Below the pieces are notes generated by a model. That model worked only from the letters and a program-made list of their open reading frames with translations. It did no database searches and had not been told where the DNA came from. Both the position numbers and the translations under genes were made by a program. Positions 52,270-61,143 of a stretch of 64,000 nucleotides of DNA are shown here, piece after piece (within the stretch, counting starts at the first letter, position 1; each line of letters starts with the position of its first letter). The stretch is from Alkalidesulfovibrio alkalitolerans DSM 16529 (GTDB lineage: Bacteria; Desulfobacterota; Desulfovibrionia; Desulfovibrionales; Desulfovibrionaceae), in NCBI RefSeq assembly GCF_000422245.1, contig NZ_ATHI01000031.1, positions 124,001 to 188,000 of the forward strand, read 5' to 3'.

Positions 52270-53025
52270 ATGGACATCTCGACTCTTCTTGGTCTCGTCG
52301 TCGGCTTGGCCATGGTTTTCGGAGCCATCTTTCTCGGCGGCTCCTTCATGGATTTCGTCAACGTCCCGAGCATCATGATCGTTGTCGGCGGCACGCTGGC
52401 CGCTATCAGCGTGGCCTTTCCTTTCGAGGAGGTCATCCAGGCCTTTTACGCGGGCGTGAAGATCTTCGCCTCGCGCAAAGTGCGGCCCCGCGAAGTGGTC
52501 GACATCATGGTCAAAGTGGCCGAGATCAGCCGTCGCGAAGGATTGCTGGCCCTGGAAAATATCCAGACAGAGAACGCGGTCCTGAAGAAATCCTGTCAGC
52601 TTATTGCGGACAACGCCGACCCCGCCTTGATCCGGGATACCCTGCGTATCGAGATTGGAGCCATGAAGCGCCGTCACAAGATTGGGCAGGACGTGTTCAA
52701 GGGGCTGGCCGCCTACGCGCCCTCCTTCGGCATGATCGGTACGCTGATCGGTCTCGTGCAGATGCTCACCCGGCTCGACGACCCGTCTTCGCTCGGCCCG
52801 GCCATGGCCGTAGCCCTGACGACAACGTTCTACGGCATCATCCTGTCCACGCTCATATTCCTGCCCATCGCGGGCAAGCTCTACGCCCGCACGCAGCAGG
52901 AGATCCTACATCTGGAGATCATCTTCGAGGGCGCGAAGTCGATTCTGGAAAACAACAACCCGCGTCTCGTCTACGAGAAGCTCTCATCATTCATAGCTCC
53001 GAAGGAACGGAAGTATGAGCGATGA
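52270..53025 (+). CDS. motA: Flagellar motor stator protein MotA
   Basis: 251 aa, four membrane segments. PSIMIVVGGTLAAISVAFP (TM2 region), RREGLLALE, GAMKRRHKIGQDVFKGLAAYAPSFGMIGTLIGLVQML and the conserved Pro-Ser-Phe-Gly-Met-Ile-Gly-Thr stretch identify MotA/PomA. Its end overlaps motB by 11 bases. Whether H+ or Na+ drives it is not decided by sequence. Confidence 0.95.
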   Translation: MDISTLLGLVVGLAMVFGAIFLGGSFMDFVNVPSIMIVVGGTLAAISVAFPFEEVIQAFYAGVKIFASRKVRPREVVDIMVKVAEISRREGLLALENIQTENAVLKKSCQLIADNADPALIRDTLRIEIGAMKRRHKIGQDVFKGLAAYAPSFGMIGTLIGLVQMLTRLDDPSSLGPAMAVALTTTFYGIILSTLIFLPIAGKLYARTQQEILHLEIIFEGAKSILENNNPRLVYEKLSSFIAPKERKYER

Positions 53026-53749
53026 GCCCCAGGGGTTCCTTGATCAGGAAGAAGAACAGGAGCCGAAGAATTATTGGCTGATGACCTATGCCGACATGGT
53101 CACGCTGCTCCTGACCTTCTTCATCCTGCTCTTCTCCATGTCCTCGCTCGATCAAAGCCAGTTTTCCGAATCCTTCACGGCCATCCGTGCGGCCATCCAG
53201 GGCAAAGAGACGACCATCGCCACTTCCCGCATCACGGCCAAGGAGGCCTCGGTGCTGGTGGAACAGGTCCAGTTGCGCCGCCAGATAGAACAGGCGCAGC
53301 AGCGAGTCTTTCAGGATGTGAGACTCCTGCAGACCACCGAAGGCGTGGAAGGGGTGCTGACGGCCAAACTGGACAAGGGCAAGATCACGCTTAGATTGCC
53401 CAGCGAGGTGCTCTTCGATTCAGGCTCAGCGACGCTCAAGCCCGGAGGAAGGGTTGTTCTTGGACAGCTCAAGAATTTTTTCATCAAATATCCCGACCAG
53501 ATGATCAACATCAAGGGCTACACGGACGACGTGTTGCCGTCGCCCACCGCGCGTTTTCGCGATAACTGGGAACTTTCCGCCATGCGTGCTGTCAACGTTC
53601 TCCGGCTGATGGTGGAACTCGGGCTCAACCCCAACCGCATGACCGCCACCGGGCTTGCCGATCTCGACCCGCTGCTCCCCAACACGTCACCCGAGAATCG
53701 AGCCCAGAACAGGCGTGTCGAATTTGTCCTGGAAAAAATCGTTGAATGA
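53015..53749 (+). CDS. motB: Flagellar motor stator protein MotB
   Basis: 244 aa. Single N-terminal membrane helix with the ion-binding Asp in WLMTYADMVTLLLTFF (D27), followed by a linker of about 70 residues and the OmpA-like peptidoglycan domain (FDSGSATLKPGG, NIKGYTDD, NRAQNRRVEFVL). It anchors the stator. Translationally coupled to motA. Confidence 0.95.
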   Translation: MSDEPQGFLDQEEEQEPKNYWLMTYADMVTLLLTFFILLFSMSSLDQSQFSESFTAIRAAIQGKETTIATSRITAKEASVLVEQVQLRRQIEQAQQRVFQDVRLLQTTEGVEGVLTAKLDKGKITLRLPSEVLFDSGSATLKPGGRVVLGQLKNFFIKYPDQMINIKGYTDDVLPSPTARFRDNWELSAMRAVNVLRLMVELGLNPNRMTATGLADLDPLLPNTSPENRAQNRRVEFVLEKIVE

Positions 53750-54068: not shown

Positions 54069-55487
54069 GTGTCCGCGAATCGACATAAAGTCTTGGTCGC
54101 AAACCGGGGCGAGATCGCCATCCGCATCATCAATGCCTGTCGCAAGCTTGATCTGGGCTTCGTGGCCGTGCACACCAAGGAAGACGCCCAGTCCGGCCAC
54201 GTCTCGCACGCCCGCAAGCACGGTGGGGACGAGGCTGTCTATCGCGTTGCCTCCTACCACGACGCCAACGAGTTGCTCTCCGTGGCCGACGCTGCGGGCG
54301 CCACGGCCGTGCATCCCGGCTACGGCTTCTTCGCCGAGGACTTCCGCTTTGCGCGCCGCGTGGTCAACCGCGACCGCCCCCTGATCTGGATCGGACCGTC
54401 ATGGCGCGTCATCCGTGAACTTGGCGACAAGATCAACACCAAGCGTTTGGCCAGAAAGCTTGGCGTACCCACTGTTCCAGGGTCGGACAAGCCCGTTTAC
54501 GACGAGATGGAGGCCGAGGAAATCGCGAAAAGCCTTTTCGCTTTCCAGGCCGACCAAGGGTTCGAGCGCCACGTGGTGCTGCTCAAGGCCTCCGCCGGCG
54601 GCGGCGGCATGGGCATCGAGGAGGTGGAGCGCATGGACACCTTCCGCACTACCTACCGCCGCCTGCGCAACTACGCCAAGCGTCAATTCCAGGATTCCGG
54701 CGTGCTTATCGAGCAGCGCATCTTCGATTTCAACCATCTTGAAGTGCAGGTGCTGGGCGACCGCAAAGGCACGGCCCACGTGCATTTCGGCACCCGCAAC
54801 TGCACCGTGCAGAGCACCGGGCGGCAAAAACGCATCGAGGTCGCTCCCGGCTTCATGCCTGGCGAGTTGCAGTACACCTTCGACGCAGGCAAGGTGCTCG
54901 ACGACATCATCGACTACTCCCTGCGCATCGCCCGCGACGTGGGTTATGACTCCGTAGGCACATGGGAGTGGATCGTGACTCCCAAGGGCGATCCCTTCCT
55001 CATGGAGGTCAACACCCGCATTCAGGTGGAGAACGGCATCTCCGGGGCTATTTCCGCCATCCGGGGGGAAGGGCCGGTGGACCTCATCAAGGAGCAAATC
55101 CGCTGCGCTCTGGGCGAGGATCTCGGCTACAGCCAGGACGACGTCACCTTCAACGGCGTGAGCATCGAATACCGGCTCATTGCCGAAGACCCGGACAACC
55201 GTTTTACGCCTTGGGTCGGCCTCATCGAGCGCTTTCAGTGGGAAGAGCAGCCATGGCTTTCCGTACTGACCCACGTGCCGACCACCGAACCGTACGACAT
55301 CCCCACCGAGTTCGACCCCAACCTGGCGCTGGCTATTATCCGGGGCAAGGATCTGGCCGAGGCCAAGGCCCGGGGCGTGCAATTCCTCGACAGCCTCAAG
55401 CTGACGGGTATTGATAGGGCGGGCCGGGAGCTTCGCTCCAACGTGGCTTTCCTGCGGGACAAGACCGCCAACCTTTTGGAATTCTAG
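54069..55487 (+). CDS. Biotin carboxylase subunit
   Basis: 472 aa, GTG start with AAGGGAG seven bases upstream. Biotin carboxylase N-domain (KVLVANRGEIAIRIINACRKL, HPGYGFFAED), ATP-grasp (KASAGGGGMGI, lid and Mg ligands through LMEVNTRIQVENGISG) and C-domain. Carboxylates biotin on a carrier protein using ATP and bicarbonate. Operon partners are a fused carboxyltransferase and a biotin-carrier-like protein, so this is one multisubunit acyl-CoA carboxylase; acetyl-CoA is the most likely substrate since the partners look like AccA and AccD. Confidence 0.92.
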   Translation: MSANRHKVLVANRGEIAIRIINACRKLDLGFVAVHTKEDAQSGHVSHARKHGGDEAVYRVASYHDANELLSVADAAGATAVHPGYGFFAEDFRFARRVVNRDRPLIWIGPSWRVIRELGDKINTKRLARKLGVPTVPGSDKPVYDEMEAEEIAKSLFAFQADQGFERHVVLLKASAGGGGMGIEEVERMDTFRTTYRRLRNYAKRQFQDSGVLIEQRIFDFNHLEVQVLGDRKGTAHVHFGTRNCTVQSTGRQKRIEVAPGFMPGELQYTFDAGKVLDDIIDYSLRIARDVGYDSVGTWEWIVTPKGDPFLMEVNTRIQVENGISGAISAIRGEGPVDLIKEQIRCALGEDLGYSQDDVTFNGVSIEYRLIAEDPDNRFTPWVGLIERFQWEEQPWLSVLTHVPTTEPYDIPTEFDPNLALAIIRGKDLAEAKARGVQFLDSLKLTGIDRAGRELRSNVAFLRDKTANLLEF

Positions 55488-55501
55488 ATCTGGGCGAATA
55501 T

Positions 55502-57772
55502 ATGGAAATCGACAACAGAATCCGCAAGCTCCAGGAACGCTTGGGCTACGTCCGCGACGTTTTCGGCGATAAGGACAACGCCAACATCAAACTGCTCTCG
55601 ACGCGGCTTGACGAGTTTCTCGAAAAGGTCGAGCGCATGCCCGTGGCTGATCAGATGCGCCACATGGTGCAACTCGAAGACCTTTTTCTCTTTTTGGAGA
55701 AGAAACTCGATGCCCAACTCACGGCCATGGATCGCGTGCGCATCGTCCGCCATCCGCAGCGCCTGTGCCTCAAGGACATTCTCGAAAACGTCTACGACAA
55801 CTATACTGAGATCGGCGGGCAGGACGAATACTCCATCGACCCCTCCATGCTCATCGCCAGGGCCTACATCACGCGGCGGGTGGGCAAGAAAATTATCCAC
55901 CAGCCGGTCATGGTCATCGGCCAGGAAAAGGGTCACGGCCAGGAGTTCCGCAACGGCGGCTCGGTCAAGCCCTGGGGCAACGCCAAGGCGCTGCACTACA
56001 TGAAGGTCGCCGAGACCGAGAACATCCCCATCCATTCCTACATCTTCACGCCCGGCTCCTACCCCATCGAGGACTATCCGGGTGCGGCCCAGCAGATTGC
56101 CAGGAATCTCTTCGAGATGTCGCAACTCCGCGTACCCTTCGTGGCTGTCATTTCCGAAGGTGGTTCGGGCGGCGCCGAGGCCATCGGCATGGCCGACATG
56201 CGCCTCATGCTTTCGCACGGCTATTATTCGGTCATTTCCCCCGAAGGCGCGGCGGCCATCGAGGGACGGACCCGTCAGGGGCAGCGCGTGCCGCCGGAAC
56301 TGATCGAGAAATGCGCACGCGACCTGAAGATGTCCGCCGAGGACAACCTGCGCATGGGCTACATTGACCGCGTGGTGCAGGAGCCGCCGCTTGGCGCGCG
56401 CATGGACCATTACGATTTCTACAAGACCCTGCGCAACGAGATGATCAACGCCACCAACCAAGTGGTGCTCCAGGTCAAGGGTATGAAGTTCTTCCGTTCG
56501 CTGGCCCTTTCCGAGCGGCTGTCCCGTAAGGATCGGCCCATGGACGCCGAGGAAGTCTTCGTCTCCTGGAACCTGTCCTCCAAGGCCCGCGACAATCTCG
56601 TCTGGAAGCGCTACCAGAAGTTCCGTCGTCTGGCCCAAGGTGCGTATCTCGACACCCGGACGGCAGGCGAGAAGGTCATGGGCAGCTTCCAGGACTTCGC
56701 CTGGGCGCTCAATTCGTTCTTCCGTTACGAGTTCTTGCGCAAGCACCATCGCAAGATCCAGCGGCTGCGCGAGGAGGTTGAGGCCGAAGTCCATCTCGTG
56801 CGCAACAAAGTCGGCAAGCCCGTCCGCGCCGTGCTGGACAAGCTCTCCGGGGCGCGGCCGCAGGCCGTGTCCGAGGAGGCCAAAAGCAATCTGACGCAAC
56901 TCTCCAAATGGGAAGAGGACGGCCAGAGCAACGGCGGGTGGATCTACGTGAGCCCCAAGGCCAAGGAAGACAGGACCGTGACCTGTCCCAATGCCGAAAC
57001 GCACGGCTGTCTCGATCTCTGGGCTCCGGATCTCTTCGGCGAATACGCAGGCGTGTGCGGTTACTGCGGCCACCACTTTCCCATGGAATACCAGTGGTAT
57101 CTCAGCAATGTCTTCGACCAGGGCTCGATTTTTGAGTTCAATGGACAGATCGAGTCCGGCAATCCCCTCGACTACGAGGGCTTCGGCGAGAAGGTCGAGC
57201 AGGCCAAGAAGCAGACCGGGCTCAAGTCCGCGTGCATGACCTTCGAGGCCCGTATCGACAATGTGAACCTCGTCGTGGCCATGCTCGTCGCCCCGTTCAG
57301 GGGCGGCACGGTGGGCGCGGCCGAGGGCGAGAAGTTCATCCGCGCCGTGGAGCGGGCCAAGAAGAAGCACTATCCCTTGCTGGCCTATGTGCACGGCACT
57401 GCAGGCATCCGCATCCAGGAGGGCACCAACGGCGTCATCCAGATGCCGCGCTGCACCATGGCCGTGCAGCGCTATATCAAGGACGGCGGCCTTTATCTGG
57501 TGCTGTACGACACCAACTCCTACGCAGGCCCCGTGGCCAGCTTCCTGGGCTGCTCGCCCTACCAGTTCTCCATCCGTTCGGCCAACATCGGCTTCGCGGG
57601 CCCGGGCGTCATCAAGGAGACCACGGGAGTGGACATTCCCCCGGACTACCATCAATCGCACCAGGCCCTCTCGCGGGGTCACATCCAGGGGATCTGGGAT
57701 AGGCGCGAGGCCCGCAAGAACCTGTTTCAGGCGCTCATGACCATGGGCGGCCGCAACCTTTACTACCGGTAA
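55502..57772 (+). CDS. Acyl-CoA carboxylase carboxyltransferase, alpha-beta fused
   Basis: 756 aa. N-terminal part resembles AccA (residues about 1-330: DRVRIVRHPQRLC, GQEKGHGQEFRNGGS, ISEGGSGGAEAIGMADM, VISPEGAAAI); an alpha-helical linker follows; from about 495 a zinc ribbon (CPNAETHGC...CGYCG) and then AccD (FEARIDNVNLVVAM, GAAEGEKFIRAVERAKK, RIQEGTNGVIQMPR). The order alpha-beta in one chain, with the zinc ribbon in the middle, differs from separate AccA and AccD of most bacteria. Transfers the carboxyl from biotin to an acyl-CoA (acetyl-CoA by homology). 14-base gap to the carboxylase gene. Confidence 0.9.
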   Translation: MEIDNRIRKLQERLGYVRDVFGDKDNANIKLLSTRLDEFLEKVERMPVADQMRHMVQLEDLFLFLEKKLDAQLTAMDRVRIVRHPQRLCLKDILENVYDNYTEIGGQDEYSIDPSMLIARAYITRRVGKKIIHQPVMVIGQEKGHGQEFRNGGSVKPWGNAKALHYMKVAETENIPIHSYIFTPGSYPIEDYPGAAQQIARNLFEMSQLRVPFVAVISEGGSGGAEAIGMADMRLMLSHGYYSVISPEGAAAIEGRTRQGQRVPPELIEKCARDLKMSAEDNLRMGYIDRVVQEPPLGARMDHYDFYKTLRNEMINATNQVVLQVKGMKFFRSLALSERLSRKDRPMDAEEVFVSWNLSSKARDNLVWKRYQKFRRLAQGAYLDTRTAGEKVMGSFQDFAWALNSFFRYEFLRKHHRKIQRLREEVEAEVHLVRNKVGKPVRAVLDKLSGARPQAVSEEAKSNLTQLSKWEEDGQSNGGWIYVSPKAKEDRTVTCPNAETHGCLDLWAPDLFGEYAGVCGYCGHHFPMEYQWYLSNVFDQGSIFEFNGQIESGNPLDYEGFGEKVEQAKKQTGLKSACMTFEARIDNVNLVVAMLVAPFRGGTVGAAEGEKFIRAVERAKKKHYPLLAYVHGTAGIRIQEGTNGVIQMPRCTMAVQRYIKDGGLYLVLYDTNSYAGPVASFLGCSPYQFSIRSANIGFAGPGVIKETTGVDIPPDYHQSHQALSRGHIQGIWDRREARKNLFQALMTMGGRNLYYR

Positions 57773-57794
57773 CCGGCTCGAAGGAGCGCGCGTG

Positions 57795-58442
57795 ATGAAC
57801 GTCAAGCAACTCCTTGAGAAATTCAAGGAATCTCCCTACGAACTGATCGATGTGACGGCCCCGCATACCGGCCGGGTGGACTTCGTGCTCACCGAGCCGG
57901 GCAGCAAGCTCGTGGGGCCGCACGGAGCATTCCTCGAAAAACCGGGAACGCTCATGGCCACCCTGGAACGCGAGAAGAACAAGAAGCCCATCCGAGCGAC
58001 CATGAACGGCGTGCTCGAATCCGTGGACCAAAATCTCGCGGGCACGTTCGTGCAGGCCGGCACCCGCCTGGGCGTCATTCGCCACTATCTGACCAGCAAG
58101 GAAGTCATCGACCGCATTCTCAAGGAAGCTCTGTATCTTTTTCCGGCTCCGGAGCGGGCGAAGTATTATTTTATTCCAGAAATCGACAAAAAGATGCGCG
58201 CCTCCGGCAAGAACGCCGTGGAGGTCACCACGGGCATGGAGATGTTCATCATGTCGCGTATGAAGAGGGAGACTGCCCTGACCTACGATGGTCCGGATGG
58301 CAAGGTCTACGCCGTCTATTTCAAGCTCGGCGAAAACGTCGAGGGCGGGCAGCCGTTGATCGGCGTGTGCCCCGGCGAGCAGCTTCCGCTGATCCAGGAT
58401 GTGGTCAACCGCGTGCGTAGCGAGTGGGAAGAGCACGACTGA
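57795..58442 (+). CDS. Biotin-carrier-like protein with two lipoyl-type domains, non-canonical lysine site
   Basis: 215 aa from the ATG at 57795 (AAGGAG eight bases upstream). Two biotinyl/lipoyl-like barrels can be seen: residues about 15-98 (TAPHTGRVDFVLTEPG, RATMNGVLESV, AGTRLGVI) and about 145-192 (FKLGENVEGGQPLIGV). The standard E-A-M-K-M site is absent. In barrel 1 the aligned position is LEREKNKK, in barrel 2 it is SRMKRE (Lys about 157), which keeps only the Met-Lys core. Being the only carrier candidate in the operon, it probably is the carboxylase BCCP; which Lys is biotinylated is unknown. Confidence 0.75.
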   Translation: MNVKQLLEKFKESPYELIDVTAPHTGRVDFVLTEPGSKLVGPHGAFLEKPGTLMATLEREKNKKPIRATMNGVLESVDQNLAGTFVQAGTRLGVIRHYLTSKEVIDRILKEALYLFPAPERAKYYFIPEIDKKMRASGKNAVEVTTGMEMFIMSRMKRETALTYDGPDGKVYAVYFKLGENVEGGQPLIGVCPGEQLPLIQDVVNRVRSEWEEHD

Positions 58443-58614: not shown

Positions 58615-61143
58615 GTGGCCTTGTTTCACTGCGATGCGTGTGGTCTGCGCAAGGACGTTTCCGACAAGTACATCGGACGTTCCATCTCCTGTCCCCGCTG
58701 TTCGAATCCGGTAACAGTCGTCGCCGTGGGCGAGAAAAACGGTCGGACGCAGCCGCTGCCTCCGCCCGAGGTGCGCCCTGTAGCCGCGCTGGATGATGGT
58801 AAAGCGGAATCGCCCGCCGAGCCCAGGTTCGAGCATCGCGACGCAGCCGACATGGACGAGATTCTGGCGGGCGACGACGACTCCGCGCGCCCCAGGCGCG
58901 ACATTTCCATCCCCATCGCGGCTGAACCGACCGCGCCAACCGCGCCCTCGCTCATGCAGGGCAGCCCCGGCGTGAACATTCTTGCGGGAACGCTATCCGG
59001 TTTTCAGGGCGTGGTGGTCTGCCTGGCCCTATCCTGCTTGATCTTCGCCGGGCGTCTCGCCTGGAGCGATTTCCCCTACGCCGTTCTTGTGGTGCTCGCC
59101 ACGGCGGCTGCCATGTCGCTCGTGGCGGCCTTGCGGAGCCGGGTGCCTTATCTACAGGCCGGACCGGGCATCGCGCTCGGAGCTGTCACGGCCTCCATGG
59201 TGCGCGACATGCACGCCTCGTTTTCCGCCGAACAGGCGGCGCATGTATTGCCCACGCTCGCGGTCGGCGTGAGCCTGTCCGCCTTCGTCGTGGGCCTTAC
59301 CCTGTGGTTCGTCGGCGGTTCGGGGATGGGCAAATGGGTGCGCTTCATCCCGCATCAGGTCGTGGGGGGGGTGCTCGCGGGCATTGGCGTGCGCGTTTTG
59401 CTCGCGGCCCTCGAATTTCAGGACGCGGGCTCGCCGTGCCTTGAGCGTCTGGCGGAAAACTTTGACTTCGATGTCTGCCTGGCCTGGGCTCCGGCCGTCG
59501 TTCCGGGAGTCCTGATGTTCATCGTGGCCCGGCGCATCAGGCACCATCTCGTCTCTCCGGTGCTCTTCCTGCTGCTCCTAGTCGGCTCGCTCCTTGGAGT
59601 ACACCTCGTCGCCGCGCCCGGCGACGCTATCCGGGCATCGGAATGGACCTTTGCCGCCTTCTCCGCGCACTCGGCCTTCGGCCCGTTCTCCCGGGATTTC
59701 CTGGGGCTCATCAACTGGGACGTGATAGCCGACCACGCAGGCTACATTTTGGCCCTGGCCGGTCTGGCCGTGGCCACGACCATGCTCACCCTGACCGATG
59801 TGGATGCCGAGACGCGTGGCCGTTCGGATCTGGATCACGAACTTTCCGTGACGGGTCAGGGAAACATCCTGGCCGCGCTGGTTGCGGGCGTGCCGGGCAC
59901 CATTTCCGAGCACCGCACCATGTCGAGTTGGCGGGCGGGAGCGGCGGGGCCGCTTGCAGCGCTGACAGCCGCCGCCGTGTTCGTGGCCGCGATCGTCTTT
60001 ATCGGCGATATTCTGGCCTACGTGCCGCGATTCGTGCCCGCGGCGGTGCTCGTCTTTCTCGGCATGCAGCTTGTGGCGCGCTGGCTTGGCGACACGTACG
60101 CCATGTTCACCCGCAAAGACGATTACGCCATCCTCGTGATCATTTTCGCCATCACGGTGTTCTTCGGGGTGCTCACGGGCCTTGGCGTGGGCGCGGCCCT
60201 GGCGATGATGATCCTCATCTCTCGTTACGGCCGGGTCAATGTGGTCAAATTCGCCTTGTCTGGAGCCACCAACCGCTCCAACGTCGAACGCGCGCCCTCG
60301 CAGCTCAAGGTGCTCAGAGAGCATGGCGGGCAGATATACATCCTGCGTCTGCAGGGCTTCATATTTCTCGGCTCCACCAGCGCCCTGATCACGGACCTTC
60401 GGCAGCGCATCGAGGACGAAAGCCAGGCCAGACCGCGCTACGTGATCCTGGACTTCAGGCTCGTCACGGGTCTCGATTCGGCCGTGGCCACCGGCCTTCG
60501 CAAGCTCAGGCAACTTGCCGACGAATACGGCGTGACCCTGATCTTCACGAGCATCCCCTTCGAGGTCGAACGGCAGCTCGCCGAAAACGGGTTCGTGCTC
60601 GACGACCCCGACAATTGCTCGCGCACCTTTGTGGACGCGGATTTCGCTCTGGAATGGTGCGAGGATCGCATTTTGGAGGATCATGGCGTGCTGGTCCTCA
60701 AGGGGCGCACCGTCGAGGATATTCTGGCGCCCATGTTCCCCGAGCCCGCCCTGGCACCGACCTTCGTCGGCTATCTGGAGCGGGTCGAGGTGAAGACAGG
60801 CAGCCATGTCTTCCGCCAAGGCGACGCGTCCGACGCCATGTATTTCATCGTTTCCGGACGGGTCAACGTGCAACTCGAACTCGAAGGCAACCGCATCATC
60901 CGGCTGGTGAAGATGGGACCGGGCACTATTTTCGGCGAGATGGGCATCTATACGGACACTCCGCGATCGGCCTCGGTCGTCGCGGCCGAAGACTGCGTGC
61001 TGTATCGTCTCTCGAAGAAGAAGCTGCATGCGATCCAGAAGCAGGACCCCATGCTCGTTTCGCTCATCCACAGGTTCGTGGTCAACCGTCTGGCCGAGCG
61101 CGTTGCCGAGGCAAATGCCAAGGTTCGCGATCTCATCAAGTAG
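58615..61143 (+). CDS. SulP-like transporter fused to N-terminal zinc ribbon, STAS and cyclic-nucleotide-binding domains
   Basis: 842 aa, GTG start with AGGGGG eight bases upstream. Order: zinc ribbon CDAC-x16-CPRC (C6, C9, C26, C29); low-complexity linker to about 115; about 10-12 membrane segments of a SulP/SLC26-type transporter (about 120-550); STAS domain (LQGFIFLGSTSALI, DFRLVTGLDSAVATGLRKL, about 580-700); cNMP-binding domain (GDASDAMYFIVSGRVNVQLE, IFGEMGIYTDTPRSASVVA, about 725-840). Anion carrier in the inner membrane whose activity is probably gated by a nucleotide or another ligand. Substrate (sulfate, bicarbonate, other) unknown. Confidence 0.85.
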   Translation: MALFHCDACGLRKDVSDKYIGRSISCPRCSNPVTVVAVGEKNGRTQPLPPPEVRPVAALDDGKAESPAEPRFEHRDAADMDEILAGDDDSARPRRDISIPIAAEPTAPTAPSLMQGSPGVNILAGTLSGFQGVVVCLALSCLIFAGRLAWSDFPYAVLVVLATAAAMSLVAALRSRVPYLQAGPGIALGAVTASMVRDMHASFSAEQAAHVLPTLAVGVSLSAFVVGLTLWFVGGSGMGKWVRFIPHQVVGGVLAGIGVRVLLAALEFQDAGSPCLERLAENFDFDVCLAWAPAVVPGVLMFIVARRIRHHLVSPVLFLLLLVGSLLGVHLVAAPGDAIRASEWTFAAFSAHSAFGPFSRDFLGLINWDVIADHAGYILALAGLAVATTMLTLTDVDAETRGRSDLDHELSVTGQGNILAALVAGVPGTISEHRTMSSWRAGAAGPLAALTAAAVFVAAIVFIGDILAYVPRFVPAAVLVFLGMQLVARWLGDTYAMFTRKDDYAILVIIFAITVFFGVLTGLGVGAALAMMILISRYGRVNVVKFALSGATNRSNVERAPSQLKVLREHGGQIYILRLQGFIFLGSTSALITDLRQRIEDESQARPRYVILDFRLVTGLDSAVATGLRKLRQLADEYGVTLIFTSIPFEVERQLAENGFVLDDPDNCSRTFVDADFALEWCEDRILEDHGVLVLKGRTVEDILAPMFPEPALAPTFVGYLERVEVKTGSHVFRQGDASDAMYFIVSGRVNVQLELEGNRIIRLVKMGPGTIFGEMGIYTDTPRSASVVAAEDCVLYRLSKKKLHAIQKQDPMLVSLIHRFVVNRLAERVAEANAKVRDLIK

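Follow-up and report, generated by a model that had tools for sequence, protein, structure and literature searches.

In most known biotin carriers, according to the available text of PMC3048393, the cofactor sits on the lysine of an AMKM signature. Where, then, would biotin be attached in an acyl-CoA carboxylase whose carrier protein has no such signature, and by which ligase? The question is raised by three adjacent genes of Alkalidesulfovibrio alkalitolerans DSM 16529 (genome 3.2 Mb, 32 contigs), which lie in the window analysed here, the whole stretch of 64,000 nucleotides from 124001 to 188000 of contig C31, to which coordinates refer unless a contig is named. The sequence-only reading of this DNA had described a biotin carboxylase, an AccA-zinc ribbon-AccD fusion and a 215-residue carrier without EAMKM in either of two barrel-like segments, and had left three options: an adapted ligase, use of the second site only, or a different kind of carrier. 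The first two are here favoured together, and the third is not.

The carboxylase locus

Open reading frames and Pfam matches confirm the three genes, all on the forward strand. The biotin carboxylase subunit (AccC-like, 54069..55487, 472 residues, GTG start) matches Biotin_carb_N (106.6 bits), CPSase_L_D2 (105.9) and Biotin_carb_C (43.1). It is separated by 14 bp from a fused carboxyltransferase of 756 residues (55502..57772), composed of an AccA-like N-terminal half, a zinc ribbon and an AccD-like C-terminal half, with Pfam matches to ACCA (188.6 bits over residues 28-321) and Carboxyl_trans (34.0 bits) and an NCBIfam match to TIGR00515 (accD) of 153.6 bits over residues 507-746. A further 22 bp downstream follows the two-barrel carrier (57795..58442, 215 residues), which starts with ATG and has a GTG one codon 5' of it. 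The order carboxylase-fusion-carrier is kept in 69 of the 71 loci of relatives with at least 4.6 kb of upstream DNA, L179 and L208 being the exceptions. By eye, a MotA/MotB-like pair (52270-53749) lies directly 5' of the carboxylase genes, and an 842-residue protein resembling a fusion of zinc ribbon, SulP transporter, STAS and cyclic nucleotide binding parts is encoded just downstream (58615-61143).

All the parts of a heteromeric acetyl-CoA carboxylase (biotin carboxylase, carboxyltransferase alpha and beta, carrier) are thus present at the locus. The biotin carboxylase retains the motif MEVNTRIQVE and the carboxyltransferase EGGSGGAEAIG and GFAGPGVI, which we take to be catalytic segments. 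The usual zinc ribbon is built from two C-x2-C knuckles; that of the fusion (56984..57067, forward strand) has an unusual first knuckle by its sequence, C495-x7-C503, followed by C519-x2-C522. The biotin carboxylase falls below the cut-offs of all accC-type NCBIfam models (best 324 of 597 bits), and every acc-model match listed is under its cut-off (e.g. accC 297.6 of 626.5, accA 160 of 319.3). Since the right families are named but all listed NCBIfam scores are below cut-off, a divergent branch of carboxylases is indicated. In an AccA search of 61 genomes the fusion is the sole AccA match of its own genome, which makes the locus the likely acetyl-CoA carboxylase of this organism; judged from sequence, the complex most likely serves that role, with acetyl-CoA as its presumed substrate. 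Six other genomes (G005, G053, G080, G082, G084 and G086) have two long AccA matches each, in open frames of 749-866 residues, perhaps reflecting a second AccA-AccD-like fusion.

Predicted fold of the carrier

The carrier matches Biotin_lipoyl (PF00364) with 33.9 bits against a cut-off of 22.1, in two stretches, and structure models bear out the two barrels proposed earlier. An AlphaFold2 model of the whole carrier, built on 52 aligned carriers, has a mean pLDDT of 90 and a pTM of 0.74. In it, barrel 1 (residues 16-97; 57840..58085, forward strand), which we judge not to be biotinylated, adopts a biotinyl fold, with 5gua as best match (Z 12.0, rmsd 1.3, 70 aligned residues) and 1bdo at Z 11.7; a hydrolase, 8eip_A, reaches Z 10.9. 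Barrel 2 (residues 112-192; 58128..58370, forward strand), the proposed biotin-bearing domain, was also modelled without barrel 1, as residues 100-215 (pLDDT 93, pTM 0.83), and its best match is the E. coli BCCP 4hr7_G (Z 10.6, rmsd 1.8, 73 aligned residues), with 1bdo at Z 10.1. Foldseek places biotin-dependent carboxylases and biotin carrier structures on top for both barrels, and a profile search of solved structures with the carrier finds chiefly biotinyl domains, with weak scores throughout (best E 0.005). A lipoyl-bearing chain, 9a5h_B, reaches Z 9.9 with barrel 2, less than one Z unit below the best match; as far as these models go, biotinyl and lipoyl domains are not set apart by the fold alone.

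Structure prediction had been proposed as a way of finding which lysine sits in a beta-turn. Both do in the model: E60-K61 lies between strands 53-59 and 62-67, and M156-K157 between strands 149-155 and 158-163.

The probable acceptor lysine and its signature

The aligned positions of the carrier read REKNKK in the hairpin of barrel 1 (residues 59-64; 57969..57986, forward strand) and SRMKRE in that of barrel 2 (residues 154-159; 58254..58271, forward strand), so that the absence of EAMKM from both barrels is upheld. Conservation was read from an alignment of 138 carrier matches, of which 80 come from named relatives and 58 from the two samples of order and phylum; 122 are distinct. The alignment comprises the best-scoring loci of each search and under-represents the most distant relatives. 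Among the 122, S154, M156, K157 and R158 are invariant, and position 159 is Glu in 106 and Asp in 16; SRMKRE itself is found in all 80 named relatives. This degree of retention (80/80 for SRMKRE, 122/122 for S-x-M-K-R) means that the motif is not a chance feature of one protein. In the barrel 1 hairpin R59, E60, N62 and K64 are nearly invariant, and position 61 is variable: Arg in 73 carriers, Lys in 31, His and Gly in 6 each, Asn in 4 and Ser in 2.

Because K157 is invariant and position 61 is Lys in only 31 of the 122, K157 is the acceptor candidate; from the alignment, biotin is likely, with good confidence, to be carried on K157 of barrel 2, in its predicted beta-turn, as the option of a second site only had it. 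Barrel 1 appears to have lost its acceptor in most carriers and to have kept a conserved hairpin, perhaps for another role such as docking to the biotin carboxylase or carboxyltransferase. Relative to the canonical signature, the code of these carriers has Ser for Glu at -3, Arg, Leu or Phe for Ala at -2 and Arg for Met at +1, whereas the Met at -1 and the acidic character of +2 are retained. Judged by its aligned members, the carrier family is a real and conserved departure from the AMKM rule.

Other biotinyl proteins of the genome

A second, canonical BCCP elsewhere that co-purifies with the carboxylase had been named as one observation that would speak against this departure, and no canonical BCCP was found in the genome with the pattern GCNATGAARATG or with PF00364 (E ≤10). 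The ten DNA matches to GCNATGAARATG include none in a biotinyl context by eye; one of them lies in a frame that looks release-factor-like. The pattern being limited to AMKM, the search for further Met-Lys sites used the 11 PF00364 matches, which comprise pyruvate carboxylase, both carrier barrels and, with labels given by eye, one GcvH-like and seven membrane-fusion-like proteins. The GcvH-like protein has a lipoate-type site by eye, VESVKAAS.

The only other Met-Lys among the 11 matches is in the pyruvate carboxylase, at NISIMKQEK. This site is also conserved: S-[I/V]-M-K-Q-E-K is present in all 21 pyruvate carboxylase loci read, from 20 carrier genomes and from G008, a carrier-less genome of family f3. 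A single genome thus has two proteins with a changed acceptor code, and this speaks for adaptation of the ligase as opposed to drift in one carrier. The pyruvate carboxylase (L001, near 240269 of contig C31; likewise L357) ends, behind its biotinyl domain, in a cysteine-rich tail, CPACAKP...CPRCGAAL, and this tail is present also in G008.

Biotin ligases of the order

Typing the genome's biotin ligase had likewise been proposed as a check. In a search of 41 genomes, the A. alkalitolerans genome has a single BPL_LplA_LipB (PF03099) match, in a frame (C31:235817-236812) that ends 9 bp before the pyruvate carboxylase frame (from 236822) on the same strand. This neighbourhood recurs in G036 and G008, and in D. 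vulgaris Hildenborough DVU1835 presumably adjoins pyruvate carboxylase as well.

A tree was calculated from 114 ligases, labelled by origin: D for ligases of the order (32), N for the weaker PF03099 match of each carrier genome outside the order (38), C for the stronger match of each of the 41 such genomes plus L071 (42), and two rows from f3. Left out were the LplA-like L343-L346 and L349, L347 (a repeat of L094) and L328 (G406, frame not resolved), the place of which scored 297.9 bits in a later search with an N profile. With the bootstrap not fully settled and some rows of odd composition, the D ligases form one clade (100/100) and the N ligases another (100/100); the placement of the D clade is weakly supported (34/98), L332 (G406) adjoins it with weak support, and the C ligases are not monophyletic (four changes). 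The one ligase found in the A. alkalitolerans genome is therefore a member of a lineage-specific clade, encoded beside pyruvate carboxylase. Its membership of the clade of carrier-adjacent ligases was considered and rejected, D and N being separate in the tree. On trimmed cores of 245 residues, it scores 43.9 bits with PF03099 (cut-off 21), compared with 40.7 and 55.8 for two N ligases; with TIGR00121 (cut-off 83.1) it reaches 79.5, just under, and the two N ligases 88.2 and 106.1, again for trimmed cores only.

A search of the order sample with a D profile gives matches in 287 of 297 genomes (E ≤1e-10) and mixes canonical and D ligases, so that it supports no claim of co-occurrence. Nine f3 genomes are listed as having no carrier match; G002 and G008 hold canonical EAMKM proteins, G008 in addition to its pyruvate carboxylase with SVMKQEK and the ligase next to it, and carrier-less f3 genomes still match the D profile, some of them strongly, for example G033 (4.2e-66, contamination 5) and G047 (1.2e-67, contamination 7). 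One carrier genome of the order, G020, has an extra canonical ligase (L071, contig C11) with an N-terminal part that looks helix-turn-helix-like by eye, and which is perhaps a biotin repressor; no EAMKM protein was recognised among the PF00364 matches listed for G020, as judged without reading the sites.

Carriers and ligases outside the order

The carrier is found in 272 of the 297 genomes of the order sample and in 54 of the 296 genomes of the phylum sample, 13 of these within the order and 41 outside; no carrier match was found on plasmids. Of these 41, 39 have at least two BPL-family matches and five have a third (LplA-like in all four read). A canonical ligase is present in all 41, and the other biotin site, read at one canonical locus in each of 30 genomes, is EAMKM (25) or ESMKM (5) without exception. 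The N ligases are also set apart by a short motif: the third residue of KWPND is Pro in 41 of the 42 C ligases (the remaining one was not parsed), in 32/32 D ligases and in 2/2 from f3, and Val, Ile or Leu in all 38 N ligases, giving KW[V/I/L]ND.

A search of the 296 genomes with the N profile is bimodal, with 39 genomes at or above 242 bits and the next best match at 158.7 bits. Outside the order, the N ligase occurs in 39 of 41 genomes with the carrier, versus none of 242 without it; since 22 of the 39 served to build the profile and match by construction, the informative part is the other 17 together with the absence from 242. Counted by family, the figures are 15/16 versus 0/79 (counted by hand, on the assumption that every label from f7 to f101 is in use), and Fisher p values are descriptive, shared ancestry being ignored. 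In 25 of the 41 genomes the N ligase and carrier matches are less than 600 bp apart, and in another two the distance is about 2.5 kb; in the remaining 14 the ligase match is elsewhere, unresolved or not found, and contig breaks may hide some. Three loci fetched whole (L361, L362, L363) have the order carboxylase-fusion-carrier-ligase. In G322 and G448, both of family f32, the profile finds no N ligase; each has one canonical-type ligase and a biotinyl-domain match, and in both the carboxylase-fusion-carrier genes are present with no ligase adjoining.

This pattern points to two cognate ligase-carrier pairs per cell in these relatives, as the probable reading of their sequences. We put forward more tentatively, as a possibility that falls somewhat short of probable, that in several families of the phylum the two are insulated channels, a canonical ligase for EAMKM/ESMKM carboxylases and the KW[V/I/L]ND ligase for the SxMKR[E/D] carrier of acetyl-CoA carboxylase, neither accepting the substrate of the other, with a third ligase type in the Desulfovibrio order for a merged code S-x-M-K-[R/Q]-E.

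Proposed mechanism and alternatives

From the computed gene order, folds, conservation, co-occurrence and ligase clades we infer biotinylation, ligase specificity, the acetyl-CoA substrate and the evolutionary order of events. The joint reading, which we regard as very probable, is that of an acetyl-CoA carboxylase with biotin on K157 at S-x-M-K-R-E, attached by an adapted ligase. The stand-alone biotin carboxylase would carboxylate carrier-bound biotin, and the AccA/AccD fusion would pass the carboxyl group to acetyl-CoA, giving malonyl-CoA. Biotin would be held by barrel 2, at a signature taking the place of E-A-M-K-M-E; barrel 1 would be an old duplicate, its acceptor lysine gone in most species and its conserved R-E-x-N-x-K hairpin maybe used for docking. 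In the order, the lineage-specific ligase encoded beside pyruvate carboxylase would attach the biotin, serving both SRMKRE and SIMKQE; in most relatives outside it, a second, divergent ligase, often adjoining the carrier, would do so beside the canonical pair. Adaptation of the ligase is favoured by the D clade, by the second protein with a changed site (SIMKQE) and by the divergent ligase beside the carrier in relatives; against it stands the observation that the order's carrier genomes have no N ligase (0/13 in the phylum sample) and do not encode their D ligase with the carrier.

The alternative that survives best, though we consider it unlikely, is that an ordinary biotin ligase needs no more than the barrel and a Met-Lys core and so accepts SxMKRE as a signature that is simply different. 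With M156 and the acidic residue at 159 retained, the change may lie within the tolerance of a normal ligase, and G322 and G448, where a canonical-type ligase is the only one found, suggest that such a ligase may accept SxMKR. Against this alternative, S154 and R158 are invariant and show no drift; EAMKM or ESMKM is retained in the very same genomes outside the order, at every locus read, and the N ligase tracks the carrier, often adjoining it. The behaviour of E. coli BirA weighs on both sides: in the available text of PMC3048393 it is broad in specificity and biotinylates the BCCPs of other species, but it fails on that of Sulfolobus tokodaii, the site of which is AMKS.

Far less probable is a two-arm carrier in which both barrels are biotinylated where position 61 is Lys. 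In the A. alkalitolerans carrier K61 is found in a predicted turn, at the place that corresponds to the acceptor, and 31 of the 122 carriers have Lys there; yet 91 of the 122 have no Lys there, mostly Arg instead, and Met never precedes position 61, residue 60 being Glu in 121. Equally doubtful is that the complex carboxylates another acyl-CoA or that the carrier holds lipoate or another group: the NCBIfam scores under cut-off, the GcvH-like protein with its VESVKAAS site and the near-equal match of lipoyl domains to barrel 2 would allow it, but malonyl-CoA supply would be unexplained in a genome with no other AccA match, the neighbouring genes belong to biotin-dependent enzyme families, and BPL-type ligases adjoin the carrier in relatives. 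With both barrels of biotinyl fold and the carboxylase and carboxyltransferase motifs recognisable, a carrier of another kind is not the favoured option, and the reading of K157 as the site served by an adapted ligase is retained.

Comparison with known systems

An exception to AMKM this widespread means that such genomes could wrongly be taken to lack the carrier, or acetyl-CoA carboxylase altogether. Ligases and carriers matched in this way amount to a natural experiment on substrate choice by biotin ligases and, if the pairs are truly insulated, would provide natural orthogonal biotin tags with which two proteins could be labelled separately in one cell. More than one biotin ligase is reportedly present in Francisella novicida. 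In the open-licence PMC literature, as represented by titles and abstract openings, no description was found of such a carrier or signature, and the passages available from the papers cited here describe no cell in which each of two ligases has an acceptor signature of its own; the available parts of PMC5343134 and PMC2649909 hold nothing bearing on the biotin site. For D. vulgaris Hildenborough, where BirA is DVU2557, the available text of PMC10102598 names DVU1835 as a second putative ligase, and its main text has zero occurrences of "acetyl-CoA carboxylase" and "carboxylase". The biotinylation motif of the Chloroflexus ACC begins E-X-M-K (PMC11077971, available text).

The same three activities are expected here as in the heteromeric bacterial AccA/AccB/AccC/AccD enzyme, of which the biotin carboxylase and carboxyltransferase alpha and beta are recognised and barrel 2 resembles the E. 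coli BCCP. Unlike in that enzyme, carboxyltransferase alpha and beta are fused, the zinc knuckle is altered, the carrier has two barrels, SxMKRE stands in place of EAMKM and the NCBIfam cut-offs are not reached. An acceptor lysine outside AMKM is shared with S. tokodaii (AMKS) and Aquifex aeolicus, the BCCP site of which is ALKV (PMC3048393, available text); unlike in those two cases, as far as the same text describes them, positions -3, -2 and +1 are all changed here, the +1 residue is basic, a second protein of the genome has a counterpart and relatives also hold canonical carriers and ligases. Matched ligase-carrier pairs across species are already known from S. tokodaii and from the M. tuberculosis ligase, which leaves the E. 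coli BCCP unmodified (PMC3048393, available text). Lactococcus lactis has two BirA ligases, both of which modify BCCP when tested on the AccB domain (PMC4861984, available text); relatives of A. alkalitolerans likewise hold more than one ligase per genome but, unlike in L. lactis as described there, each ligase seems tied to its own acceptor signature.
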